DNA of 47,689 nt, taken from the IMG/VR virus record IMGVR_UViG_3300035564_000186, positions 1 through 47,689 of that record. One strand, written 5' to 3'. The notes under the pieces were generated by a model, which had not been told where the DNA came from, did not search any database, and was given only the letters and a program-made list of their open reading frames with translations. The DNA comes from a virus. Made by a program: the position numbers and the translations under genes. Below are positions 17,106 through 45,785 of the stretch, one piece after another (position 1 is the first letter of the stretch; each line of letters starts with the position of its first letter).

Positions 17106-18017
17106 TTATAAGTTCTCTACCGCAGCAGCGTAATCTTCCCGCCCAAATTGGATGTAGCGTTTGGTGGTGCGGAAACTCTTGTGGCGCATCAAATCCTGGA
17201 GCATGTGTTCAGGGGTGCCATTTTCGTGCAGGCGACGCCCAAAGGTGTGACGCAGGCAATGGGCGTGGAAATCGGTCAAGCCCGCTTCGGCAGCAACCCG
17301 ATTGAGTTCACGTTCAACCTGTCGTACCGTGATACGTTTCGATCCCTTGCCGGTGAACAATGCGCCAGCATGCGGATAAACTTCCAGCCAGGCAGATATG
17401 GCTTGACGTGCCTCGGCACCAACCGGTTGTTCGGCTTCCTTTTCGCCTTTTCCTGCGCGAATGCGCACGTCGCCGCTACGTTCTTTCAGTAGTAGGTCAG
17501 AAACGTCCAACTTCACTACTTCACCAGGACGAAGACCACAGTACAGGATGAGCGCAGCAATGGCGCGATTGCGAATGAACTGCCTGCGCCAGGCATCGCT
17601 GCGTGCAGTGTTGACTTCGATATCGAACTGCCTGCGCAACTTGCGGAAGTCTTCAGGGGTGAGCCAGAACGGAGAGAGTTCCTGGATTTCCATAGGCTCA
17701 ACACCCTGCATGGGATTTCCAACCACATAGTTGTTGGCCTGGCACCAGACGGTGAAAACCTTCAGACTAGCGCGCTTGCGGTTCCAGGTGGAGGCCTTGA
17801 CCTTTTTAGTCAAGAGATAAGCGCGATATTCGCGCAGGTCTGGAGCGCAAAGGAGACCAGGCTCGAAGGCGCGTTTGTTGACCTGCTCGAACCAGTGCGT
17901 ATATAAGTTGATGTCGCGCAGATAGGCTACGATGGTGAGCTCAACACGACCGGCATTGACCAAGTAATCCATGAATCCCTTCCGCCAATTGGTGATGTCT
18001 TGAATTGGGTTACTCAT
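17106..18017 (-). CDS. Tyrosine recombinase (phage integrase/XerC-like)
   Basis: A 303-aa site-specific recombinase distinct from the IntI at the left edge. The catalytic set is R163 (CGLRPGEV), K190 (RAGKGEKE), H253 and R256 (HAHCLRHTFG), H279 (LMRHKSF) and Y288 (TTKRYIQF). The N-terminal SAM-like DNA-binding domain spans residues about 10-100. It lacks the IntI-specific insert. It probably integrates the phage into the host chromosome or resolves multimers. The adjacent non-coding stretch at 16653-17105 is the natural place to look for attP. A strong AAAGGAG site precedes the ATG. Confidence 0.88.
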   Translation of the reverse strand: MSNPIQDITNWRKGFMDYLVNAGRVELTIVAYLRDINLYTHWFEQVNKRAFEPGLLCAPDLREYRAYLLTKKVKASTWNRKRASLKVFTVWCQANNYVVGNPMQGVEPMEIQELSPFWLTPEDFRKLRRQFDIEVNTARSDAWRRQFIRNRAIAALILYCGLRPGEVVKLDVSDLLLKERSGDVRIRAGKGEKEAEQPVGAEARQAISAWLEVYPHAGALFTGKGSKRITVRQVERELNRVAAEAGLTDFHAHCLRHTFGRRLHENGTPEHMLQDLMRHKSFRTTKRYIQFGREDYAAAVENL

Positions 18018-20949: not shown

Positions 20950-21555
20950 TTATGCGATCACACTAAGCAGGGTGCCTTTATTCCCGGTAGTTTCGCGTCG
21001 CCCGGTAATCTTTGCACCGCGCACTTTGATCACTTCGGTTTCGTCGACAGCCCTTTGCGCAGCTTGAAGTGGGTTCCGGGTATATTCGACAATGGCTGCC
21101 GAAAGATGAAGGCCATCGATGATTCCACCAGTCCATTTGATTAATTGGGTTATTTCAAATTCAGGGATTTCGGCGCTTAGTTCTTTGGCTTTTCCGGTCA
21201 GACGCCCCACCAGATTATTGGCATCTCCAAGTTTTCCATATGGAATGAACACGATGAATTCATCTCCGCCCCAGGTTGCAACGATGTCTCGCCGCGTGCT
21301 GCAAACACCCAACAAACGGCTCAGCATCCGGTTGGCCTGGCTGTACCCCAGAACCGCATTCAAAGTGTGCATACCCCGAATGTCGAACGCAACCAGTGCA
21401 CCCGGAACTCTCAGCAGGCCATACCAGGCCAGGCGCATTCGACCAGCTTTTTGTGAAAAGACCCCGGGATGCAAATGGCTGCGCTGTAAGGCTGAAATAT
21501 AAAGGGACTGTAAAACAATGATCAGGATTGTGATCGAGATAAAGAATGTGTTCAT
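20950..21555 (-). CDS. Membrane-anchored minimal GGDEF (diguanylate cyclase-like) protein
   Basis: A 201-aa protein with an N-terminal hydrophobic helix (FFISITILIIVLQSLYIS), a short linker, and a GGDEF domain from about residue 52. The active-site loop WGGDEF (95-100) is intact. D58 in LVAFDIRG fits the metal site, and N66 with the following GYSQANRML takes the place of the usual GH...GD helix, so substrate contacts are altered. The RxxD inhibitory site is absent. It could make c-di-GMP, or bind a nucleotide without catalysis. It is the first gene of the leftward early operon, about 75 bp downstream of a strong promoter, which suggests immediate expression after infection or induction. Confidence 0.78.
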   Translation of the reverse strand: MNTFFISITILIIVLQSLYISALQRSHLHPGVFSQKAGRMRLAWYGLLRVPGALVAFDIRGMHTLNAVLGYSQANRMLSRLLGVCSTRRDIVATWGGDEFIVFIPYGKLGDANNLVGRLTGKAKELSAEIPEFEITQLIKWTGGIIDGLHLSAAIVEYTRNPLQAAQRAVDETEVIKVRGAKITGRRETTGNKGTLLSVIA

Positions 21556-29213: not shown

Positions 29214-29265
29214 TCTTCGCTCCCAAGGTGACAGTCACTTCGAAAATGACTATCACCTGAACAAT

Positions 29266-29520
29266 CTACCAGGTTCCATCTGCCCTGACTTTGACCTTCT
29301 TTATTCGTCTTATCCCGCGCGGGTCGCGATAGCCGGTGATCCTGGTGGCATTGGATGGTGTTTTGAATGGATTACGGCCATCGCCAATCTCTTTTTCTGC
29401 TGTGCGTCCAATATACAGGCAGGCTAAATCGAAATCCAGTGCAGCCCAGGGCGTCTCGAATTCCAGCCTATCGGATGGATAACCGCCATAGGTTTCAGCC
29501 AGGCAGTGCAGCAGAAACAG
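29266..29520 (-). CDS. Frameshift-encoded extension of the tail-assembly chaperone
   Basis: Immediately after the upstream chaperone ORF there is an open frame without a start codon, shifted +1 (equivalently -2) relative to it. Read from about 29520 it gives LFLLHCLAETYGGYPSDRLE and continues to a stop at 29266, about 84 codons. Its composition is protein-like (for example KTPSNATRITGYRDPRG) and it fills the gap up to the tape measure. This is the place of the G/GT pair of lambda and of similar pairs in nearly all siphoviruses, where the longer product arises by programmed frameshifting. The slip site is not certain; candidates lie in the 50 bases before the first-frame stop at 29497-29495, such as AAATTTCGC. 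Confidence 0.68.
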   Translation of the reverse strand: MFLLHCLAETYGGYPSDRLEFETPWAALDFDLACLYIGRTAEKEIGDGRNPFKTPSNATRITGYRDPRGIRRIKKVKVRADGTW

Positions 29521-32146: not shown

Positions 32147-32159
32147 ATTTGTTCTTTCT

Positions 32160-32212
32160 CCTTCCCCTAAATTCCCGTTCTTGGAATTTGGGGGAAGGCC
32201 GGGATGGGGGTC
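32160..32212. repeat. Palindromic GC-rich repeat, copy 4 (intergenic, supplies a stop codon)
   Basis: CCTTCCCCTAAATTCC (32160-32175), loop CGTTCTT, then GGAATTTGGGGGAAGG (32183-32198) and the tail CCGGGATGGGGGTC. The final GTCA supplies the stop codon of the portal gene (TGA on the minus strand), so the element has replaced the original 3' end of that gene. Confidence 0.85.
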
Positions 32213-34933: not shown

Positions 34934-36363
34934 GTTTGCTCCTCCGGCTTATTTTCGGTCAGATGCAATTCGGCTTTGACCAGTGTGACCTTATGCGTAT
35001 TGGATAGGACAGCCAAAACATGGAACTCGCTTACTCCCTTTGAGATAGCGTTGGTCTGCGCATCGCTCAATTCCACGCTAACAATTTGCGTACCGGTTCC
35101 AGATGCGCTACCGTTCTGTGTGACGCCATTGCATTTGAACGTGATCGTCGCCCCTGCCAGGGAAGGCCAGGCCTCCGATGTCCATGAAAGCGCCCGGCCT
35201 TCCGCGGCATAATAACTATCGCCTTGGATAAGTTCAATGTCTCCGCCCTCAGCCATAGGCCCACTATAAGTGACTTGCACCGCTGAAAGCCCGGCCACCA
35301 GGTTGACCAGGGTGGTCATCACCGTCAATACGCTTGAAATTGCCGCATCCAGTTTTTGCACCAGCCACTTCCCAATGCTTCCTGTCATTGTCAGTCCAGA
35401 AGTTGGCACTTCCCAAACTTCCCCAGCCGTCAAGGTCGAATAATCCCCGGTTCTGCGCGCATAGTCCGCCAGGATGGTCGTCATGTTACCCTGCAAGGTC
35501 GCCAACGCAGTCACCGTGGCGTAATCCCCGGTTCGACGGGCATAGTCCGCCAGAATGGTTGTCACATTGCCCTGCAAGGCGGACAAAGCAGTCACCGTGG
35601 CGTAATCCCCGGTTCGACGGGCATAGTCCGCCAAAATGGTAGTCACATTACCTTGCAAGGCGGACAAAGCAGTTACCGTGGCGTAATCGCCAGTTCGACG
35701 AGCATAGTCTGTCAGGATGGTCGTCACGTTGCCCTGTAATGTGGATAAAGCAGTCACTGTAGCGTAATCGCCAGTTCGACGGGCATAGTCCGCCAGAATG
35801 GTGGTCACATTGCCTTGCAAAGTGGATAACGCCAAAGCGGTTGCATAATTTGTCAGGATGGTTGTAACATTGCCTTGCAAGGCGGCCAGCGCGTCAACCG
35901 TGGCGTAATCACCAGTTCGTCTGGCATAGTCCGCCAGAATGGTTGTCACATTGCCCTGCAAGGTGGACAAAGCAGTCACCGTGGCGTAATCCCCGGTTCG
36001 ACGGGCATAGTCCGCCAGAATAGTGGTCACATTGCCTTGCAAGGTCGAAAGTGCGCTGGCCGTTGACAATGCTGATGTCTTCGTACCCAGGTTATTGGCA
36101 ATTTGTGGCGGGGTGTAACTGTATAAATCCTGTTGGTCAACCGTCACATCGGTTGTGGTGAATTTCGCAACCAAATCCAGATCATCCGCGCCCGAATAGC
36201 TATACATATACACACCCGGCAGATTTGAAAGCGCGGTCGTCGCCTGCGCATTTGCCAGGATGTTATTGGCGCTGTCAACCACGGTGCAGGTTGGTGCCAC
36301 ACTCGGAGCCGTTCCCACGCCAATCTTTGTGTAAACCGCCTTGAAATAATAAGTTGTGGTCAT
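34930..36363 (-). CDS. Repeat-rich tail fibre protein
   Basis: A 477-aa protein. An N-terminal beta domain of about 100 aa is followed by eight tandem units of a 27-residue motif (ALSTLQGNVTTIL then ADYARRTGDYATVT). A C-terminal domain of about 150 aa contains a hydrophobic helix (VLTVMTTLVNLVAGLSAVQV) and an acidic beta-rich end that resembles baseplate-upper-protein-type domains (EGGDIELIQGDSYYAAEGRA). The repeats look like a trimeric coiled-coil stalk with heptad-like L, V and I positions. It is encoded between the tailspike and connector genes, so a fibre attached to the tail or head-tail junction is likely. Confidence 0.7.
   Translation of the reverse strand: MTTTYYFKAVYTKIGVGTAPSVAPTCTVVDSANNILANAQATTALSNLPGVYMYSYSGADDLDLVAKFTTTDVTVDQQDLYSYTPPQIANNLGTKTSALSTASALSTLQGNVTTILADYARRTGDYATVTALSTLQGNVTTILADYARRTGDYATVDALAALQGNVTTILTNYATALALSTLQGNVTTILADYARRTGDYATVTALSTLQGNVTTILTDYARRTGDYATVTALSALQGNVTTILADYARRTGDYATVTALSALQGNVTTILADYARRTGDYATVTALATLQGNMTTILADYARRTGDYSTLTAGEVWEVPTSGLTMTGSIGKWLVQKLDAAISSVLTVMTTLVNLVAGLSAVQVTYSGPMAEGGDIELIQGDSYYAAEGRALSWTSEAWPSLAGATITFKCNGVTQNGSASGTGTQIVSVELSDAQTNAISKGVSEFHVLAVLSNTHKVTLVKAELHLTENKPEEQT
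35430..36065. repeat. Tandem 81-bp repeats within the fibre gene
   Basis: Eight units (seven full, one shortened near 35830-35890) of an 81-bp sequence, easily followed by the recurring CCAGTTCGACG/CCGGTTCGACG box and GGTNGTCACATTGCC. The near-identity at DNA level suggests recent duplication and scope for length variation by slippage or recombination. Confidence 0.85.
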
Positions 36364-37709
36364 GGCAACCTCGACAATATTTGTGCAACAATAGACGAAT
36401 GTCCAAGAGCCAATGGGTGCAGTCCGTCAATTGTTTGTGCGGCGGTTATCCAGGGCGTTGTATACGTATCCCAGCAAGTAATTGATTTAGCCGTACATGC
36501 TGCAAGAATAGCTGCTCGTTTTAAAGAATTATCAATCGGAGTCCCGCCACCACTGTCAGTCCATTGTGGCAAAATATTCATGTAATAGAGAGTTGCAGTT
36601 GGGTTACTGGTTTTCAAGGCAAGAATATTAGTTTCGACCTTGGCTTGTAGGGCTGCCATGTCACCACCCTCGTTATCATTTACGCCTAAAGCCAGAATGA
36701 TTATTGTAGCTTCATCCCCCGCCGCAGCCACGACTTGTGTATCCAAGTCAGCTATAATACTAGCCCCCGACGCGGCGTGATCTTTTAGATTTGTTGCCCC
36801 AGATAAATATGATATTCCTAATCCGTGCGGCCATGTCGCCGGATTGGTTGCCTGGGATATACTTTCTCCAAGAACGGAAATGACTGTAAGTTTTTTAGAT
36901 GTACCCAATCTAACCAATGGAGCATATCTTGCGGAAGCAATTGACAGTGGAGCTGGTTGTCCTGTATTAAAATTCATTGCCAGCCGCTGGGAGATATCGA
37001 GTGTATATATATTAGATGACCATCCACCCTGATCTGACGGCCAGGAAGGAAAAGCCACTGAATCTGGCAAAGAAGCGGGCACTTGATATTTTGTAATACT
37101 TTCGCATTCATTTATATCTGGTATTCTCCAATCGGTATATCCACCAACTCGGGCTGCATTGACCGCCCTACAATAATCATAGATATCATAAATCTGACCC
37201 GTCCAGGGCATTTTACCGTTCCCTGCTACTCCCTGTTTTGACGAACATTTTTGTAACCACATCAAACCAGTACGATTATCCTTAACACATACATTGGACA
37301 ATGCCTCACGCTTGATTAATGAAACATTATATCCAGCCGTTTCATCCACGAGGGATTGAGATACAACAACCTTATCTGCCGTTGCGGAAATAGTTGTGTA
37401 AACCCCAAAATTATAGTGACTGCCAATAACAACAATTGTCTCGCCACCTGCGGCTAAAAATACTCCCATTTGTCCTGTACATCGAATCTCTTTCGATGCC
37501 GAGTTAAACGATATGTCGGTTCTGGTCAGATATGCCAAGTCTACGTTTGACGTTCCTGAGTATTGCCCACTATTCAAAACAGTATATGACGGAAGAACAC
37601 CTGTTTGCCAAAAACCGGCATCTAGTTCACCACTATACTGTGTAGTCTGGCGAGTGCTCAAAAGTCGCGCTTCACCAGCGAAACTGTGTGCTCTCGCTAA
37701 AGATTGCAT
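36360..37709 (-). CDS. Tailspike-like protein with Lcl/DUF1566 lectin-like domain and SGNH hydrolase
   Basis: A 449-aa protein of two parts. Residues about 130-270 carry the DUF1566/Lcl pattern (VKDNRTGLMWLQK, then DYCRAVNAARVGGYTDWRIP), a C-type-lectin-like fold that can bind glycans. Residues about 275-449 form an SGNH/GDSL esterase: block I VISVLGESISQ (catalytic Ser in GES), block III ALGVNDNEGG, and block V IDGLHPLALGH (Asp-His). Such a protein would bind and deacetylate host surface polysaccharide. It lies in the structural module with the fibre and a glycosyltransferase. The first 130 residues probably attach it to the virion. Confidence 0.8.
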   Translation of the reverse strand: MQSLARAHSFAGEARLLSTRQTTQYSGELDAGFWQTGVLPSYTVLNSGQYSGTSNVDLAYLTRTDISFNSASKEIRCTGQMGVFLAAGGETIVVIGSHYNFGVYTTISATADKVVVSQSLVDETAGYNVSLIKREALSNVCVKDNRTGLMWLQKCSSKQGVAGNGKMPWTGQIYDIYDYCRAVNAARVGGYTDWRIPDINECESITKYQVPASLPDSVAFPSWPSDQGGWSSNIYTLDISQRLAMNFNTGQPAPLSIASARYAPLVRLGTSKKLTVISVLGESISQATNPATWPHGLGISYLSGATNLKDHAASGASIIADLDTQVVAAAGDEATIIILALGVNDNEGGDMAALQAKVETNILALKTSNPTATLYYMNILPQWTDSGGGTPIDNSLKRAAILAACTAKSITCWDTYTTPWITAAQTIDGLHPLALGHSSIVAQILSRLP

Positions 37710-38812: not shown

Positions 38813-40549
38813 CTACGACCCGGAACTGCCCGAGCCGATGGTCACATAGGAGCCTTTTTCGGCAATTGGCGATTCGGTCGCGTTGAATTCTTCGGTGTAA
38901 TACTGGTCGGCGGCAATAATCTTGCCATCCGCGTTGTAGCTGGCCAGCGGCCCGCGAATGGCCATCGGCTGGAATACACGGTACTGCACCAACTGCTTGT
39001 TGCCGCACAAGATGATGTCATCCGGGAATTCCGTCGAAGCGAACACCGGCAGGCTTTTTACAGCACCTGCATATCCTTCGGCGTTCAGGATTGCATCCGG
39101 GAAACCTTGGCGGGTGAAACCTTCCCAGTTCGACAGGATTTCGGCGTTGTCATCGGAACACAGGAAATATGTCGGCTTGTAGAATCGGCCATTGACTTTG
39201 ATTTTTGCCAAACCCATCAAACGCACCAGTTCGGCATAGTCAGTTTGTTCGGTGCCCGGCGTCCAGATACCCGCTTCGTTGTTGTCCACACCATGTACCT
39301 GGCTCCAGGCCAGCATTAACATGCCCTGGTCGATTTTGCGCTGTTGCTGTTTGACCAGGTTGGCCAGCAAACGCGCAGTCACGTCATAATTCATCTGCGA
39401 CTGGCTGAAAACGATCGCTTCGCGACTGACCAGGTCAGCCAGGCGGTCGGCTGCCGCTTCGATCACGATGTAATCCTGGGTGAGTTTCGCGCGCTGGATT
39501 GGTGCCATTTCTCCATTACGGAGAGCGGTGTAGTTATATGTAGCCCGCAGGCTTTGGCCGTCAGTGATGGTCGCCAGCGCCTTGACGCGCCCGCCCGCGT
39601 AGTCCACAATGTAATCCTCGTTTTCTGTGTAGGTCACATTTGGAGTGGAGTTCGTCAGCACAAACGTATTGGGTGTGATGCGCCCGTAGGTCAATTTGAC
39701 CCAAACATCCAGGTCAGCAACGACTGTTTCGGATGTGGATGTGCCGGTATAGCCGCTCTCGCCGCTGAAGCGTTCAAAATACAGGCGCTCCGGCGAGTTA
39801 TTCATGATGCCGACGTCAAAAAGACCGCTGGCTACCAGGGTCGGGTAGGCTTCCTCGATGATCAGGCGCGAAACCGAATAGGGCAGGTTCAGATCGCTGG
39901 TCTGGGTGGCTTCCGCCAGGGCGCGGCTTTCTAACAGAAGTTCGCGTTGATGAATTTTGTCGAAGCGTTCCAGCAGTTTCTTGGCAAACAGCTCGTTCGC
40001 CGTCCGTACTTTCGACCAATCCCGCGATGGGGTCATGGTCACATTCCGCACCGATTCGGCCAGTTGGAAGGATGCGCGGGCGAATTCCGGTGTGCCGGTC
40101 TCGCTTTCCAGGACAGGCATGACACCGTGAACACCGGAGAAACCCATCTTTTCCAGTTTGCGGCCTGCAAATAGCTTGTCGTACTCCTTGCGTTTGCTCT
40201 CGACCAGCGACTTGACAGCCGCCGCATCCTGCGGGTTGGCTGCGTGGATGGCTTCCAGGAACATCTTGTTCCCTTCATCGCCATACGGCAGATCTTTTGT
40301 CGCTTCGCTGATGGCCGTCTCGAGCGCGGTCTTGCGCTTGCTTTCCTGCAACTCAGCCGCATCGGCGCGCAGCTTCTTCATGGTCTCGAAGATGCTGGCG
40401 CTGCCATCGATGCCCAACGCCTCACGGATCTGGCCTTCCAGCGTCTTGAGCTGGCTTTCTGACATGGCTTTCAATTGCGCCTCAGTCACACCCTGGAATA
40501 TCTCCGGGTGTTCGGCAAGCAATTTTTTGAGTTCTTCCAAAAGGTTCAT
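38813..40549 (-). CDS. Nested internal-start product: scaffold plus major capsid protein
   Basis: Inside the polyprotein an ATG at 40549 (MNLLEELKKLL, residue 464) is preceded by GGAGG with 5 nt spacing, the best ribosome site within the ORF. Translation from here gives a 578-aa scaffold-capsid protein without the protease. Many copies of this form and few of the protease fusion would give the stoichiometry a prohead needs, analogous to nested protease/scaffold genes in lambda (C/Nu3). Confidence 0.7.
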   Translation of the reverse strand: MNLLEELKKLLAEHPEIFQGVTEAQLKAMSESQLKTLEGQIREALGIDGSASIFETMKKLRADAAELQESKRKTALETAISEATKDLPYGDEGNKMFLEAIHAANPQDAAAVKSLVESKRKEYDKLFAGRKLEKMGFSGVHGVMPVLESETGTPEFARASFQLAESVRNVTMTPSRDWSKVRTANELFAKKLLERFDKIHQRELLLESRALAEATQTSDLNLPYSVSRLIIEEAYPTLVASGLFDVGIMNNSPERLYFERFSGESGYTGTSTSETVVADLDVWVKLTYGRITPNTFVLTNSTPNVTYTENEDYIVDYAGGRVKALATITDGQSLRATYNYTALRNGEMAPIQRAKLTQDYIVIEAAADRLADLVSREAIVFSQSQMNYDVTARLLANLVKQQQRKIDQGMLMLAWSQVHGVDNNEAGIWTPGTEQTDYAELVRLMGLAKIKVNGRFYKPTYFLCSDDNAEILSNWEGFTRQGFPDAILNAEGYAGAVKSLPVFASTEFPDDIILCGNKQLVQYRVFQPMAIRGPLASYNADGKIIAADQYYTEEFNATESPIAEKGSYVTIGSGSSGS

Positions 40550-41938
40550 TTCATCCTCCAAAGGATTGATAGATTCGAATAGGGTGACTTGCGCTTCAGG
40601 GTCTGAAGCTTCATTGGGTGCGGTCAGGTCATAACCGGTGATCACTAAATCGGTCACTTCGTCGATGCTGACCCCATCCACTTTGATGGTGACTGTTTCG
40701 CCGTTGGCGCGTTGACTGATACCCGGCTTCACACCGCCCTTCATTTGGGCGCGGATGTCTTTGCCTGCCGTGGTGCCGAGCAGGTTGCCCTGCAACTGCA
40801 CCTGGCGACCGTCAAAATCAACAGAGTCCCAGTTGACGACTGTTTCGGAAAGCAAATGACGCCGATTTCCCTTATCTGCGGGATGGTCTGATTCGCCGTC
40901 TGTCAGCGATAATCGCCCCTGGCCTGCGCTCTCGTTCAGATGGGATCTCAAATTCCTGACCGCTGCTTCGAGCACACTTGCCGGGTAACGTCGATTATTT
41001 GCATTGATTACATTTGCCGTAATGCCAATCCCATGGATACGCCACGGCCCATCGGGATTGTCATTTTCGGCGCTTTCATCCAGGCTCAGCGACTGCTCCA
41101 CGCTCTCGATCAGCCGCTTTCCCTTTCCTTTCTTCCCTCCCCCTAAATCACGATTCTCAGTGATTTGGGGGAAGCCGGTGGGGGGTTGGGTGGAACTTTC
41201 TTTGATACCAGCCGGTGCATCTTCTTTGATGGCTGCATAGTGCTTGCGCAAATGGGTCATCGCCGCTTTCTTCTCATCCACGCTCAAGCTGGGTGCGCCC
41301 CGCGCGCCTGCCAGCGCCGCCGCAGCGGCTCCCAGCCCGGCCCGGTTCAATACGATTTCAGCATTGATGATTTCGTGGTGCGGACCAAAGGCTTTGGTAT
41401 ATGCAAAAGTTGGCTGGCCTTCTGCATCCGTGCCAAAAGCGTCATCAGGGACGAAGGCATACACTTCGCGGATCTGCGCCTTTGTTACCTGACCTGCCGC
41501 ATAAGCATCGGCCAGACTATTGCCAAGCGCGGTTTTGTCCACATCGCCCCAGGCCGTGTCGCTGACTTTACTGGTATTAACTTTCAGTTTCGTCTTGGCT
41601 TCGGTGATTGGCGCAGCTTCAGCAGTGGTATCTGGGGTTTGGGGTTGGTAAGTCAGTTCCACCACTGGCCACGGCTGCTGCGCAAAACTGAAGGACTCGC
41701 CCTGCTGGGTGAAATCCACCTGGTAGAACTCATCCGGCATCAAACGATCCGGTGCATTTGGCCCATAAACTTGCACGATCAGGGTCTGGTGGCCTGGTTC
41801 ATTGAAAACTTCCTCCACTGAATACCAACAGCCATCACTTTCCGGGAAAGCCGTCCTAAACGCCTGTAAAATATCCATCCGCTGGTAATCCAGCGAACCT
41901 TTGGTGATTTCATCGAGTTGCTTGCCTTTGTATTTCAT
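38813..41938 (-). CDS. Prohead protease-scaffold-major capsid polyprotein
   Basis: A single 1041-aa ORF with several modules. Residues 1-240 form an unassigned N-terminal domain (KTALGNSLADAYAAGQVTKA, then KAFGPHHEI). Residues about 253-270 are a repeat-encoded insert (TGFPQITENRDLGGG). Residues about 300-455 are a prohead-protease domain of the Ser-His type: H352 in GESDHPADKG and S408 in KPGISQRANG, with IHGIGITANVINANNRRYP at its start. Residues about 464-600 are a charged helical delta/scaffold segment (LLEELKKLLAEHPEIF). From about 615 onward comes the HK97-fold major capsid protein (SFQLAESVRNVTMTPS; LPYSVSRLIIEEAYPTLVAS). Proteolysis would release mature capsid. An internal start allows a second product. 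Confidence 0.82.
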   Translation of the reverse strand: MKYKGKQLDEITKGSLDYQRMDILQAFRTAFPESDGCWYSVEEVFNEPGHQTLIVQVYGPNAPDRLMPDEFYQVDFTQQGESFSFAQQPWPVVELTYQPQTPDTTAEAAPITEAKTKLKVNTSKVSDTAWGDVDKTALGNSLADAYAAGQVTKAQIREVYAFVPDDAFGTDAEGQPTFAYTKAFGPHHEIINAEIVLNRAGLGAAAAALAGARGAPSLSVDEKKAAMTHLRKHYAAIKEDAPAGIKESSTQPPTGFPQITENRDLGGGKKGKGKRLIESVEQSLSLDESAENDNPDGPWRIHGIGITANVINANNRRYPASVLEAAVRNLRSHLNESAGQGRLSLTDGESDHPADKGNRRHLLSETVVNWDSVDFDGRQVQLQGNLLGTTAGKDIRAQMKGGVKPGISQRANGETVTIKVDGVSIDEVTDLVITGYDLTAPNEASDPEAQVTLFESINPLEDEMNLLEELKKLLAEHPEIFQGVTEAQLKAMSESQLKTLEGQIREALGIDGSASIFETMKKLRADAAELQESKRKTALETAISEATKDLPYGDEGNKMFLEAIHAANPQDAAAVKSLVESKRKEYDKLFAGRKLEKMGFSGVHGVMPVLESETGTPEFARASFQLAESVRNVTMTPSRDWSKVRTANELFAKKLLERFDKIHQRELLLESRALAEATQTSDLNLPYSVSRLIIEEAYPTLVASGLFDVGIMNNSPERLYFERFSGESGYTGTSTSETVVADLDVWVKLTYGRITPNTFVLTNSTPNVTYTENEDYIVDYAGGRVKALATITDGQSLRATYNYTALRNGEMAPIQRAKLTQDYIVIEAAADRLADLVSREAIVFSQSQMNYDVTARLLANLVKQQQRKIDQGMLMLAWSQVHGVDNNEAGIWTPGTEQTDYAELVRLMGLAKIKVNGRFYKPTYFLCSDDNAEILSNWEGFTRQGFPDAILNAEGYAGAVKSLPVFASTEFPDDIILCGNKQLVQYRVFQPMAIRGPLASYNADGKIIAADQYYTEEFNATESPIAEKGSYVTIGSGSSGS
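41138..41188. repeat. Palindromic GC-rich repeat, copy 6 (in-frame inside the capsid polyprotein)
   Basis: CCCCCTAAATCAC (41139-41151) pairs with GTGATTTGGGGG (41160-41171), followed by GAAGCCGGTGGGGGG. It is encoded as GFPQITENRDLGGG in the linker before the protease domain. Confidence 0.8.
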
Positions 41939-42013: not shown

Positions 42014-43597
42014 TTATTGATAACTATTGACAAATCCAAATAATTGCTCTGCCGTGCTCACCCGCGCCACGCCGCTGACCGTCTTCCTGTTCTCACCTGC
42101 ATCTGCTGCAATCATCTGCACCGACCCGGATACGAAATCGACCATGTCGTCATGTCGTCCTGGGAATGATGTTGCCTGGCGGATAAAATTGCGATTCCAC
42201 GTACCACGCACCAAAAAAACATGTTTGCTCTTCGCCCGCCGCCGCCAGGGCCTGGCACGCTCGACCTTGTCTCCTTGGGGCTTTACCGCAGCAATTTCGG
42301 TGTTGACCAGCGCCTTATCCTTCATGAATTCCTTGAACACCAGTTTCTGGAAAGCCACATCCTCCACACCCCAGCGCGTGCCGCGTTCCTGGTCGGAGAG
42401 CATCCGCGAGCGCACCTCCGGCAAGAACTTTTCCAATTCGCGCTCATCGAGTACATCCCGAATAAAAAGGTCTTCACCGCGCAAAGCCACCGCACCTGTA
42501 GCATTCAGATCGCTGGTTTGGCTTTCGCCCAAAGCCAAATCCATATAGCTGTACCAGGTCAGGCCCTCCGGGGCTTTCTCTTCGATTCTGAAATCACCGT
42601 CATCGAAGAAACCGCCGCTCGGCAGGCGCGGGCTTTGCTGGAACTGTGAAGCAAACTCATAATCTTCGGTATTGCTGGCGATGGTCTTGAGTTGCTGCGC
42701 TGTATGTTTCTCCGGCCAAAGCGCCTCGCCTGGCTGCCGTCCCAACTGGTCACCGCCCATCGGGATGAAAATTCCACGCAGTAGGTTTTCCTGGAACTGC
42801 TCTGTGATGGTTGGGTATTCATTTGCTTCCAGCGCCAGCGCCGGGAACGAAATCACCTCCCACCGGTCGGCGTCTTCATCATCGGACGCCATTTTCGCCA
42901 ACAATTGCCCGGCCACGTCCTCCTGGTCCCACCTGGTCATGATGATGATGATCGCCGCATGGTCTTCCTGACGGGTGTAGAAACTGGAGCGATACCAGCT
43001 CATCACCTTTTTGCGATTGGTCTCCGAATCGGCGTCTTCGCGGTTTTTGAACGGGTCATCTAGGATCAACAGGTGACCGCCCTTACCGACCAAAGGCCCG
43101 CCCACGCCTGCCGAAATCATCCCGCCCGCATGGTTTGCCAGCGCCCAATTGGTGGCCTTGTGCCTGTCTTCGCTAATTTCCACCGGAACTTCGAAGATGG
43201 ATTTATTGCCAAAGATGGCCGCGTAAAGGTCGCCGTCGATCATGTCGCGCACCTTGCCGGAATGCTCCCCGGCCAGTTCTGCGCCATAACTGGCCAGCAT
43301 TACGCGGATATCCGGGTTTTTGCCCAGCACCCAGGCCGGGAATTTCTGGCTGGCCGTGTTGCTTTTCCAATAGCGCGGCGGCATGAAAATCATCAACCGT
43401 CCAATACCGCGCTGGCCGTCCGAAGCGATGAATTCGTAGACCTGCTCCAACTTCTCGGCCAAGTATTGGATATGCCGCGCCTCGTGTGGGTAGCGCTTGT
43501 CCATGTAGCGGCAAAACGGCAGGAAGCGCCTGCGCGCGAGTTCGCGTTTGGCGCGTTCGGCCAGTGCTGCCTGTGGAGAAGCGCTAGTCTTCGGCAT
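42014..43597 (-). CDS. terL: Terminase large subunit
   Basis: A 527-aa packaging motor. The ATPase part has the Walker A region FMPPRYWKSNTASQK (the usual PPRHGKS has Tyr-Trp in place of His-Gly), Walker B HLLILDDPFKNREDADS and the coupling motif IIIIMTRWDQEDVAGQL. The nuclease domain starts at WYSYMDLALGESQTSD with its first acidic residue. It cuts and translocates concatemeric DNA into the prohead through the portal. It overlaps the small-subunit gene by 14 bp, as is common. Confidence 0.9.
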   Translation of the reverse strand: MPKTSASPQAALAERAKRELARRRFLPFCRYMDKRYPHEARHIQYLAEKLEQVYEFIASDGQRGIGRLMIFMPPRYWKSNTASQKFPAWVLGKNPDIRVMLASYGAELAGEHSGKVRDMIDGDLYAAIFGNKSIFEVPVEISEDRHKATNWALANHAGGMISAGVGGPLVGKGGHLLILDDPFKNREDADSETNRKKVMSWYRSSFYTRQEDHAAIIIIMTRWDQEDVAGQLLAKMASDDEDADRWEVISFPALALEANEYPTITEQFQENLLRGIFIPMGGDQLGRQPGEALWPEKHTAQQLKTIASNTEDYEFASQFQQSPRLPSGGFFDDGDFRIEEKAPEGLTWYSYMDLALGESQTSDLNATGAVALRGEDLFIRDVLDERELEKFLPEVRSRMLSDQERGTRWGVEDVAFQKLVFKEFMKDKALVNTEIAAVKPQGDKVERARPWRRRAKSKHVFLVRGTWNRNFIRQATSFPGRHDDMVDFVSGSVQMIAADAGENRKTVSGVARVSTAEQLFGFVNSYQ

Positions 43598-44273
43598 TTT
43601 CTTCCTCGTCTGTTTCGGGCAGAATTTCTTCTTCGTCCCGCAGCTTTCTCAGGAATTCCTTGGCGTCCTCGCCGCTCATGGCTGCCAGTTCGGCGTCACT
43701 GAATTCTGAAAGGTCGCTCTTGCCTGGGGTTTCCCTGCTGGTCTTGAGTTTTGGCGTATAATCGCCGGTCATTTCGTAAAACAAGCGCCGCTCCGGGGTT
43801 GCCCGGTAGGATGGATCAGAAACCACAAGCCCCGTTGCGCGGAATGCACCCGGTCTCCATTCCAACAAATCCTGCGCCTGCAAATCGGCAATCATCTGGT
43901 CGATGGCTGGATAATAATTCTTACGCCAGGTCGCAATTGCCCGGTCGCTGGTCAATCCCAGCACCTCGCGCGCCAGTTCATTTTGCGTTTTCGGCCAACG
44001 GAATTCCTTTGGCATGGTGGCCCAGGCGATATACGCCGCAATCCGCCACGACTTGGTAAATCCCGACTGTAGCATTCGGTGATAAGTCTCGGCCCAGGTG
44101 GGCAGTTCGTCGCCTTCCAGCTTTTCGTGCAACGCCTGGCGCGCGGCCAGGTTGCGCTCACGCACTTCCGCCGCTGAAAGCGGCTCCAGTCCAGCGCCAT
44201 TCTCCTCCGCGTCCTTGATCAGTTCCGCGAAGTTTTCCAGCGCCAGTTGCGTCAACTGTCCGATTTTTGCCAT
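43584..44273 (-). CDS. Terminase small subunit (probable)
   Basis: A 229-aa protein upstream of TerL. The middle contains a DNA-binding, HTH-like region (KTQNELAREVLGLTSDRAIA, then TWRKNYYPAIDQMIADLQAQ) of the kind seen in phage TerS-like proteins. N-terminal and C-terminal parts are charged and helical; the acidic tail (DEEEILPETDEEENAED) overlaps the start of TerL. It recognises the packaging start site and regulates TerL. Confidence 0.72.
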   Translation of the reverse strand: MAKIGQLTQLALENFAELIKDAEENGAGLEPLSAAEVRERNLAARQALHEKLEGDELPTWAETYHRMLQSGFTKSWRIAAYIAWATMPKEFRWPKTQNELAREVLGLTSDRAIATWRKNYYPAIDQMIADLQAQDLLEWRPGAFRATGLVVSDPSYRATPERRLFYEMTGDYTPKLKTSRETPGKSDLSEFSDAELAAMSGEDAKEFLRKLRDEEEILPETDEEENAED

Positions 44274-44276
44274 TCT

Positions 44277-44603
44277 CTACTTTCGCATCCTTACCAACAG
44301 GGTATGGATCTCATCCAGGCAGTCATTCCAGCCTTTTTGATACCCTTCGTCTGAAGCAGTCTCAATGTCAACTACCCCGCACATTTTTCCGCCATTTGAC
44401 AGGGTCACACATATATATGCCGTGACCGATACATCTTTCGGCCACTTCACCTGCGCCCATGTCTCACCGGCTCCGGGCCCGGCGATCAAATTCCCGACCA
44501 TCTCCAGTTGGTCGCCCACTTTGAGCGTGCCGATAATTCCGGCTATTTGGTTGGGACCTCGCCGCACATTGACTACCGGTTTAATTGCAATAATATTTTT
44601 CAT
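44277..44603 (-). CDS. SH3-like domain protein
   Basis: About 108 aa. The first 65 residues are a bacterial SH3-like beta-barrel: NVRRGPNQIAGIIGTLKVGD, then EMVGNLIAGPGAGETWAQVKW. A short charged helical tail follows (EGYQKGWNDCLDEIHTLL). Such domains bind peptidoglycan or other ligands, and in phage lysis or tail regions they often accompany cell-wall hydrolases, although no catalytic domain is attached here. An alternative GTG start lies two codons upstream. Confidence 0.65.
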   Translation of the reverse strand: MKNIIAIKPVVNVRRGPNQIAGIIGTLKVGDQLEMVGNLIAGPGAGETWAQVKWPKDVSVTAYICVTLSNGGKMCGVVDIETASDEGYQKGWNDCLDEIHTLLVRMRK

Positions 44604-44614
44604 GTTCACTCTTT

Positions 44615-44962
44615 TTATTGATCGTCTTGCATCTTCAATTCATCGGTCATTGGCTTGCGTTTAAAAGCTGGTTTTTTATCAGGTGCGATCTCATGTATTT
44701 GATTGCTCAAAATGTCAACACCTTTGGACAATTCAAATATCCGCTCATGCTGCCGCTGGTTATTAGTCTCTATGATTTTTCGAAGCCTTAAATCTGTTTC
44801 CAATTCAATGATACGGGCAGTCAGGCCATCGATGAGCAATTTCCACGAACTAACATCATCCAGTTTGTTTTGATGTCTGGCCCGTATAAATTGAACCAGG
44901 GCAATCAATCCACTACCAGCAATAAAAGCCGCGATTAAATCGAAGATCAGTTTGATATCCAT
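44615..44962 (-). CDS. Small membrane protein with coiled coil (possible holin/spanin-like)
   Basis: About 115 aa. An N-terminal transmembrane helix (LIFDLIAAFIAGSGLIALVQ, then FIRARHQNKL) leads to a coiled-coil segment (LLIDGLTARIIELETDLRLR, then KIIETNNQRQHERIFELSK) and a basic C-terminus. This layout recalls the DUF2730/holin-associated or inner spanin-like proteins found near lysis genes. It follows the holin-like/pilin gene. The start at 44962 (MDIKLIFDL) is favoured over a longer upstream reading. Confidence 0.5.
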   Translation of the reverse strand: MDIKLIFDLIAAFIAGSGLIALVQFIRARHQNKLDDVSSWKLLIDGLTARIIELETDLRLRKIIETNNQRQHERIFELSKGVDILSNQIHEIAPDKKPAFKRKPMTDELKMQDDQ

Positions 44963-45014
44963 TACAGGTTTTTCTTTGACGCAATCACCCAAAACGGGAT
45001 AATTGCGTCATCGT

Positions 45015-45569
45015 CTAAAGACTGGAGTTGATGGTTTCGAATACGTTTTTCACCAGCGGCCCCATAATGGTCAATGCCGCAATTACGACCACAGCCACCA
45101 ACACCAGAATCAGCGCATATTCGACCATTCCCTGGCCCTGTTCAAGTTCCGGATCACGCTCCGTTTCGTCAACCTGGGTTGGACTGGGATGAAACATTTT
45201 CAATGTTCCCTGCACGCCATACGCGCTCAATAATGTGCCGATAAATCCGAAAACAGCAATCACAGCCGGTTGGTATGTTGCTGGGATCATGCCAAGCAAG
45301 CCATTGCCGAATACCACTATCAAGGCCACAATCGCGCCAGCTGCAGCTGTCGCCGGTCCTTCCAGCGTGGTTACGAATGGCAATGCTTTGGAAATTGATT
45401 TGAGACCAGCCGTTACCAGCCAAATCGCCCCGGCTTTCAACAGCGCCACCGCCCAATCTGGCAGGGTTGATGTGGGTGTTCCCTCCTGGCGCATCCCGGC
45501 TGCCAATACCGGCGTTACAACCATCAGGGATAGGATAACAACCAACAGCAAAACGGTAATCTTTTTCAT
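45015..45569 (-). CDS. Holin-like membrane protein fused to an Flp-type pilin segment
   Basis: About 184 aa. A signal-peptide-like start (MKKITVLLLVVILSLMVVTP) is followed by three hydrophobic segments (KAGAIWLVTAGLK; AAAGAIVALIVVFGNGLLGM; VIAVFGFIGTLLSAYGVQG) that resemble small phage holins. The C-terminal 39 residues are an Flp/Tad pilin: GQGMVEYALILVLVAVVVI, with a prepilin cleavage glycine (G145) and Glu at +5 (E150) followed by Tyr. Flp pilins are processed by TadV-type peptidases and assemble into Tad pili. It is the first gene behind the leader RNA and promoter of the late operon. Fusion with a holin-like domain is unusual. Confidence 0.68.
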   Translation of the reverse strand: MKKITVLLLVVILSLMVVTPVLAAGMRQEGTPTSTLPDWAVALLKAGAIWLVTAGLKSISKALPFVTTLEGPATAAAGAIVALIVVFGNGLLGMIPATYQPAVIAVFGFIGTLLSAYGVQGTLKMFHPSPTQVDETERDPELEQGQGMVEYALILVLVAVVVIAALTIMGPLVKNVFETINSSL

Positions 45570-45602: not shown

Positions 45603-45644
45603 AAAATAAAAAAGCCCCGGCACATATCAGCATGTGCCGGGGCT
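45603..45644 (-). terminator. Strong rho-independent terminator ahead of the late operon
   Basis: Arms AGCCCCGGCACAT (45613-45625) and ATGTGCCGGGGCT (45632-45644) are perfectly complementary around ATCAGC. On the minus strand they are followed by TTTTTTATTTT. It would stop transcription coming from the cassette array and from the promoter at 45785 unless bypassed by antitermination. Confidence 0.85.
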
Positions 45645-45752
45645 CTCATCTCCCGGAAGTCTGAACTGGTCAGACCAGAGCGTTCCCACTTTAGATCGGG
45701 GAGCAGGTCAGGAAAGGGTTGACCTGCTCCCTAAGGCGGGGGGACCTTACAA
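45603..45752 (-). ncRNA. Structured leader RNA of the late operon
   Basis: The RNA starting near 45751 folds strongly. Stem GGGAGCAGGTCA (45699-45710) pairs with TGACCTGCTCCC (45720-45731). A 5-bp hairpin CTGGT/ACCAG lies at 45666-45678, with an alternative TCTGA/TCAGA pairing. The terminator hairpin follows at 45613-45644. The RNA lies between a strong promoter and the first late gene, so it could be a small stand-alone RNA or a riboswitch/antiterminator leader. I recognise no known RNA family in it. Confidence 0.55.
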
Positions 45753-45757
45753 CTTAA

Positions 45758-45785
45758 ATTTTAAAACGATTTCCCTGTTTGTCAA
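45758..45785 (-). promoter_or_regulatory. Late-operon/leader promoter
   Basis: Minus-strand TTGACA (45785-45780), a 16-bp spacer, then TAAAAT (45763-45758). The boxes and spacing are the same as in the early promoter at 21663-21636. It should start RNA near 45751. Confidence 0.7.

Follow-up and report, generated by a model that had tools for sequence, protein, structure and literature searches.

A phage late-operon gene that joins a holin-like protein to a host-type Flp pilin

What use might a phage have for a bacterial pilin fused to the end of a protein that resembles a holin? The gene that raises this question lies in a stretch of 47,689 nucleotides (the window), which is a whole IMG/VR virus record (IMGVR_UViG_3300035564_000186) of a tailed phage carrying a large terminase gene (TerL), portal-like and head genes, tail genes, a topoisomerase and a primase. 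We report on the architecture of this gene, its relatives in other viral contigs and the probable source of its pilin domain, and propose a model for the function of the encoded protein.

Architecture and genomic setting of the fusion gene

The open reading frame at 45015-45569 on the minus strand (stop codon included) encodes 184 residues, just as the first-pass annotation of this DNA had reported, and its start codon has the ribosome-binding site AAAAAGGAG ahead of it. The product begins with a predicted cleavable signal peptide (MKKITVLLLVVILSLMVVTPVLAA; residues 1-24, 45498-45569), read directly and aligning with the signal peptides of the homologues L190, L192 and L228-L234. This is followed by a three-helix holin-like domain (residues 38-126, 45192-45458), delimited by homology to L190, L192 and L128 and by the helices of an AF2 model, and by a hydrophilic linker (residues 127-145, 45135-45191), which ends in G145 and is predicted to be cytoplasmic from the loop charges of five fusions. 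The remaining 39 residues (146-184, 45018-45134) constitute a mature Flp pilin, recognized by PF04964 and by identity to host pilins, with a predicted prepilin-peptidase cut between G145 and Q146. Three helices had been annotated ahead of the Flp part, and the AF2 model places them at residues 38-61, 72-92 and 97-126, but the earlier count left out an N-terminal helix (3-26) formed by the signal peptide; a further helix (140-183) covers the pilin part. Like the other AF2 models, this one is of low confidence (pLDDT 58).

The fusion gene is the first of a late operon whose genes all lie on the minus strand. It is followed by a 125-residue protein with a single transmembrane (TM) segment and a coiled coil (44615-44992), equivalents of which flank the holin in relatives; a 110-residue protein with an SH3-like domain (44277-44609; PF08239, E=1.4e-5, 1.4 bits below the cut-off); the small terminase subunit (TerS; 43584-44273), assigned by position and by 47-55% identity to the pre-TerL gene of L002, L003, L005, L006 and L018; and TerL (42014-43597; phrog_38, E=1e-92; 66% identity to L018 and L021). 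Just upstream of the fusion gene, in a position like that of tR', is a strong hairpin resembling an intrinsic terminator (45610-45647, minus strand; 17-bp stem and T tail, fold z=-8.0), preceded by a sigma-70-like promoter, TTGACA-16-TAAAAT (45758-45785, minus strand), identified purely as a consensus match (11/12). In six relatives (L006, L192, L228, L229, L230 and L233) a terminator-like hairpin likewise precedes the holin-like gene at this position. The surroundings of the fusion gene have the lambda-like layout, in the order promoter, terminator, holin, lysis genes and terminase.

The fusion protein resembles the class I holins (lambda S type) in its small size, in its three predicted TM segments with the N-out/C-in topology that defines this class (a prediction consistent over five fusions), in its place as first late gene behind a terminator and before TerS and TerL, and in the occurrence of its homologues in lysis-type cassettes. 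It differs from them in its C-terminal pilin and in that none of the described holin families matches it significantly (best PHROG holin match E=0.34), and its holin activity is putative; the PHROG holin matches of its relatives are weak too (E 0.02-0.19). What warrants the term 'holin-like' is the topology, the position of the gene and the homologues, not a significant match to a holin family. The holin part is homologous to those of L190 (score 118) and L192 (152), which carry no Flp, and to that of the fusion L128 (85); none of 1000 block shuffles reached any of these scores. A supposed homology to the Rctr41k slot protein was unsupported, its score being reached by 156 of 1000 block shuffles. 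The window itself yielded no endolysin; GH25 genes (PF01183) are found in the cassettes of L002 and L133, and a GH25-like lysozyme sequence was recognized by eye in that of L192.

The pilin domain and its source

The first-pass annotation had assigned a Flp prepilin pattern to the last 39 residues, and this is borne out exactly: the sequence after G145 reads Q146-G-M-V-E150-Y151-ALILVLVAVVVIAALTIMGPLVKNVFETINSSL, with Glu at +5, Tyr at +6 and a hydrophobic stretch of about 20 residues after Y151. In Pfam, PF04964 (Flp_Fap) matches residues 144-183 with E=1.7e-7 and 31.3 bits, 0.9 bits below the gathering cut-off of 32.2 (the fusion L014 scores 40.6); because 19 of the 23 PF04964 matches in eight Anaerolineae genomes also lie under this cut-off, 31.3 bits is what a pilin of this group ordinarily scores. 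In the PDB the fusion protein matches only the Flp pilins 8u1k and 8u2b (E 0.04-0.13). On these sequence grounds the Flp pattern goes beyond chance.

The TadV processing site is G/XXXXEY (PMC4322843), and prepilin peptidases accept either Gly or Ala at -1 (PMC3244431). The -1 residue is G or A in all five of the fusions described below. Two phage Flps (L128 and L130) have Ala; a loss of processing in these was considered and rejected, since host pilins share the Ala and one pair of them adjoins a CpaB-like gene. The fusion has the processing site, Glu5, Tyr6, hydrophobic stretch and mature length of 39 residues of the Flp/Fap type IVb pilins (PF04964) of Tad pili, and is identical to Anaerolineales pilins at up to 37 of 39 positions. 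In contrast to these pilins it is encoded by a phage, outside any tad locus and within a late operon. Its leader comprises 145 residues with a signal peptide and three TM segments, as opposed to the short cytoplasmic leader (around 10 residues) of Flp prepilins, and for this reason the whole protein is not classed as a normal Flp prepilin.

Genomes searched with the Flp domain yielded Anaerolineales/Chloroflexota pilins almost exclusively, and in 120 genomes of the Anaerolineales family whose pilins come closest to the window's, the best DNA match to the right-hand 20 kb of the window is that pilin gene (77-78%); the earlier attribution to a Chloroflexota phage is supported by these results. 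We infer the hosts from pilin similarity rather than from a prophage or CRISPR link. In the candidate host genomes, which are MAG-level records, paired adjacent single-domain T2SSF genes (TadB/TadC-like) are present in 9/9 and a prepilin peptidase in 8/8 and 8/9, so that the absence of Tad genes from the hosts, which had been named as a finding that would speak against a Tad connection, is not what we observe. No prepilin peptidase of the phage's own was found within the window. Two intergenic hairpins of the window (32147-32212 and 29214-29270; z -3.6 and -5.2) have short DNA matches of 80-95% in many Anaerolineales genomes, and look like repeated hairpin elements or shared terminators.

A narrower pattern revealed an Anaerolineales lineage with tandem pilins, among them those that match the mature pilin of the window at up to 37 of 39 residues. 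Third codon positions of the 37/39 pair match at 17/39, and comparisons between phage Flps give pS of 0.58-0.94 with dN of 0.11-0.20. Since third positions agree so poorly and pS greatly exceeds dN, the amino acid sequence of the pilin, its extracellular end included, has been held in phage genomes for a long time; the pilin as a whole has long been under purifying selection, which speaks against recent capture and against a mere anchor. The conservation extends to the C-terminal part at the pilus surface, as co-assembly would require. A signature specific to phage Flps (QGMVEY, VAVVV, MGPL) was sought and rejected, as the same residues are present in the Anaerolineales lineage of G614, G630, G636, G700 and G760. 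Separately, one Anaerolineales chromosomal Flp pilin (L113, 6592-7170) has a C-terminal extension that by eye resembles an M23-type peptidase domain.

These comparisons bear on the idea that the Flp is simply a helix for anchoring or oligomerizing the holin, with no Tad contact. Flp helices self-associate and holins work by oligomerizing, which lends this idea a rationale, but we consider it quite improbable: the identity with host pilins persists at saturated synonymous sites and takes in Glu5, Tyr6 and the C-terminal 15 residues, which is far stricter than a generic helix requires, while the holin helices are only about 30% conserved between the window and L128. Because the whole pilin is conserved, recognition by the Tad machinery, and probably insertion into it, is likelier than mere anchoring.

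Fused, split and Flp-less forms

Pattern scans of viral contigs, which require VEYA-type motifs and miss diverged pilins, identified five distinct fusions of a three-TM protein to Flp: that of the window, L012/L018/L021, L014, L023 and L128. PF04964 matches the other four with E values of 2e-10 (L014), 2e-6 (L018), 2e-7 (L128) and 5e-4 (L023). The TerL relatives of the window phage (52-66%) have a small holin-like membrane protein in the same slot; in the closest of them, L018 and L021 (TerL 66%), this is a 151-residue fusion in which Flp follows a different three-TM domain. The gene order in L014 and L128 is fusion, TM/coiled-coil gene, (small gene), TerS and TerL, and the L023 fusion adjoins a TM/coiled-coil gene after the tail genes. 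The Flp fusions are always in the lysis or late slot.

At least three unrelated N-terminal families bear Flp: that of the window and L128; that of L014, with the Flp-less L003; and that of L018, with the Flp-less L002. The holin part of L014 is 36% identical to L003 and 33% to L008, and the score of L018 against L002 was reached by one of 1000 block shuffles; for the N-terminal part of L023 no relative was detected among the sequences compared here. Within the window's own family, L190 and L192 are Flp-less holin-like proteins in Anaerolineales genomes, and a scan of viral contigs added eight loci, of which two are copies or near-copies of others; all are Flp-less and occupy the late slot, ahead of terminase or head genes. 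The cassettes of the Flp-less homologues contain TM/coiled-coil genes and TerS-TerL. Because these homologues (L190, L192 and L228-L235) end where the window's linker begins, the Flp is a modular addition, an accessory that was gained repeatedly rather than a universal part of the holin. Homologues lacking the G-x4-E-Y motif had been named beforehand as evidence against the first-pass interpretation; the outcome is divided, with most homologues of the holin part lacking Flp and five distinct fusions keeping it.

The pilin also occurs unfused. L008 has a stand-alone 50-residue Flp gene directly between a TM/coiled-coil gene and the homologous holin gene, an arrangement which is the split form of the fusion. 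Stand-alone Flps are also present near tail, head or terminase genes in the phage-like contigs L013, L017, L022, L026 and L130; IMG/VR contigs may contain host sequence, which matters for these stand-alone Flps and not for fusions amid phage genes. In L133 (~1640-1690) and L135 (~755-805), which belong to a single population (100% identity over 8,060 b), the Flp copy has an in-frame TGA exactly at the codon of the -1 Gly (MLFTPKEK*QGLVEYALILVL...) and precedes a GH25 lysozyme (PF01183), a TM/coiled-coil protein and a two-TM protein. Recoding of this TGA was rejected, since their other ORFs use TGA as an ordinary stop; the Flp looks like a broken copy, and one phage seems to live without it.

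The three-TM N-terminus is absent from all of the approximately 78 host pilin ORFs that were read. All 34 proteobacterial-type Flp loci in viral contigs are stand-alone, none with a three-TM N-terminus, and for this reason the fusion looks specific to Chloroflexota-type phages. A direct tblastn search with the fusion found nothing in phages, plasmids or viral contigs, and Anaerolineae prophages with a related TerL (<=43%) have no Flp nearby. The contigs are metagenomic, and a host pilin might have been joined to phage sequence in assembly or binning; we regard such an artefact as scarcely credible, as against it stand the number of distinct open fusions (five), their origin in different samples, the slot they have in common, the divergence of their DNA, the difference between phage and host Flp codons, and the lack of the three-TM N-terminus in hosts.

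A proposed model for the fusion protein

Across the five fusions, the loops predicted to be inside contain 29 Lys and Arg residues, compared to four in those predicted to be outside. This distribution, read by the positive-inside rule, places the linker and the processing site in the cytoplasm and the C-terminus of the pilin outside in all five. The predicted topology would provide both the geometry needed by a prepilin peptidase and the N-out/C-in arrangement of class I holins.

We propose that the gene encodes a two-part protein of the late lysis cassette, in which a class-I-type holin (signal peptide, N-out, three TM segments, C-in) would be followed in the same reading frame by a complete Flp prepilin of host type (cytoplasmic site between G145 and Q146, one TM segment, C-out). 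A host prepilin peptidase of the TadV/CpaA type would cut after G145, giving a holin with an end much like that of its Flp-less homologues, together with a 39-residue membrane pilin acceptable to the host Tad machinery. Late in infection, the released pilin could co-assemble into the Tad pilus or jam it. The effect would probably be to keep competitors, or the phage's own progeny, from adsorbing by way of the pilus to a cell that is already dying, at the time when the holin part opens the membrane. The simplest formulation is that the late module supplies a pilin, sometimes as a holin precursor, because this accounts for the stand-alone and adjacent Flp genes as well.

That the protein is a polyprotein, cut by the host peptidase into a holin and a pilin that engages the Tad pilus, is a reading we hold tentatively, at a little short of even confidence. 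Holin activity, cleavage, pilus engagement and a benefit to the phage we infer, the last by analogy as superinfection exclusion. Against this reading weigh the polytopic leader of 145 residues, where normal Flp leaders have about 10; the Ala at -1 in two phage Flps, albeit one found in host pilins too; a holin identity drawn from topology, position and homologues, with PHROG holin E values of 0.02-0.34; and the Flp of L133/L135, broken at its -1 codon. The broader suggestion of the first-pass annotation, that a phage protein is built to meet the host Tad and prepilin-peptidase machinery, gains support from the complete host-type pilin, the strong purifying selection on it, the predicted cytoplasmic site and the Tad genes of the hosts.

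A serious rival, though in our estimation an unlikely one, holds that processing gates lysis: the Flp helix would lock the holin in an N-out/C-out form with four TM segments until the helix is removed by the peptidase or pulled by the Tad platform, and the pilus machinery would in this way set the timing or host specificity of lysis. The C-terminus of class I holins is usually cytoplasmic and regulatory, and it is to this end that the Flp is fused, with a processing site that has been kept and a predicted change of topology. A gate would not call for stand-alone phage Flp genes (L008, L130 and others), which are kept without fusion; the Flp-less homologues presumably lyse without one; and identity at 37 of 39 residues over the extracellular end of the pilin is more than a gate needs.

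Phage proteins that disable pili are known, and host-grade pilin sequence behind a polytopic leader could also describe a plug, an uncleaved, dominant-negative pilin that its holin part leaves stuck in the Tad platform, blocking pili and concentrating the holin there. We find this doubtful, as each of the five fusions keeps the G/A(-1) site and a stand-alone Flp would not act as a plug. The precedents are Tip, Aqs1 and Zip of Pseudomonas, which are expressed from prophages, bind the PilB motor or the PilZ-PilB complex and bring about superinfection exclusion (PMC11656802). Our preferred reading, that of a cleaved polyprotein, shares with these proteins the proposed targeting of host pilus machinery and superinfection exclusion as the benefit; it differs in that the window phage would contribute a pilin, encoded by a late lysis gene, and for Tad rather than type IVa pili.

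The open papers searched contained no work on point concerning a holin joined to a Flp pilin, phage-encoded Tad pilins or Chloroflexota phages, and the fusion of a holin-like protein to a Flp pilin appears to be undescribed. The data suggest that Chloroflexota viruses tie cell lysis to the host Tad pilus machinery, with a host-quality pilin kept under long selection and repeatedly attached to unrelated holin-like proteins. More speculatively, with perhaps a third of our confidence behind it, the fusions may represent a new class of lysis protein, a holin-pilin polyprotein in which the host prepilin peptidase processes a late viral precursor and a host-mimicking pilin takes over the Tad pilus at lysis. 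If so, a phage lysis gene would be wired to a pilus biogenesis pathway, giving phages a new means of controlling host pili and of coupling or timing lysis, and offering a rare way into the biology of phages of the Chloroflexota, most of which are uncultured.

Other genes of the window, all on the minus strand, include a 1041-residue ORF (38813-41938) that joins an S77-type prohead protease to a major-capsid-like C-terminus and is common to the relatives, and two integrase-like recombinases in the one record (4-1008 and 17106-18017). A protein with an Lcl_C and a GDSL lipase-like domain (36360-37709) is possibly a receptor-binding or host-surface enzyme, and a 201-residue protein (20950-21555) with an N-terminal TM segment and a GGDEF (diguanylate cyclase) domain, whose WGGDEF motif is intact (PF00990, 26.4 bits against a cut-off of 23.8), is a candidate for phage-encoded c-di-GMP signalling.
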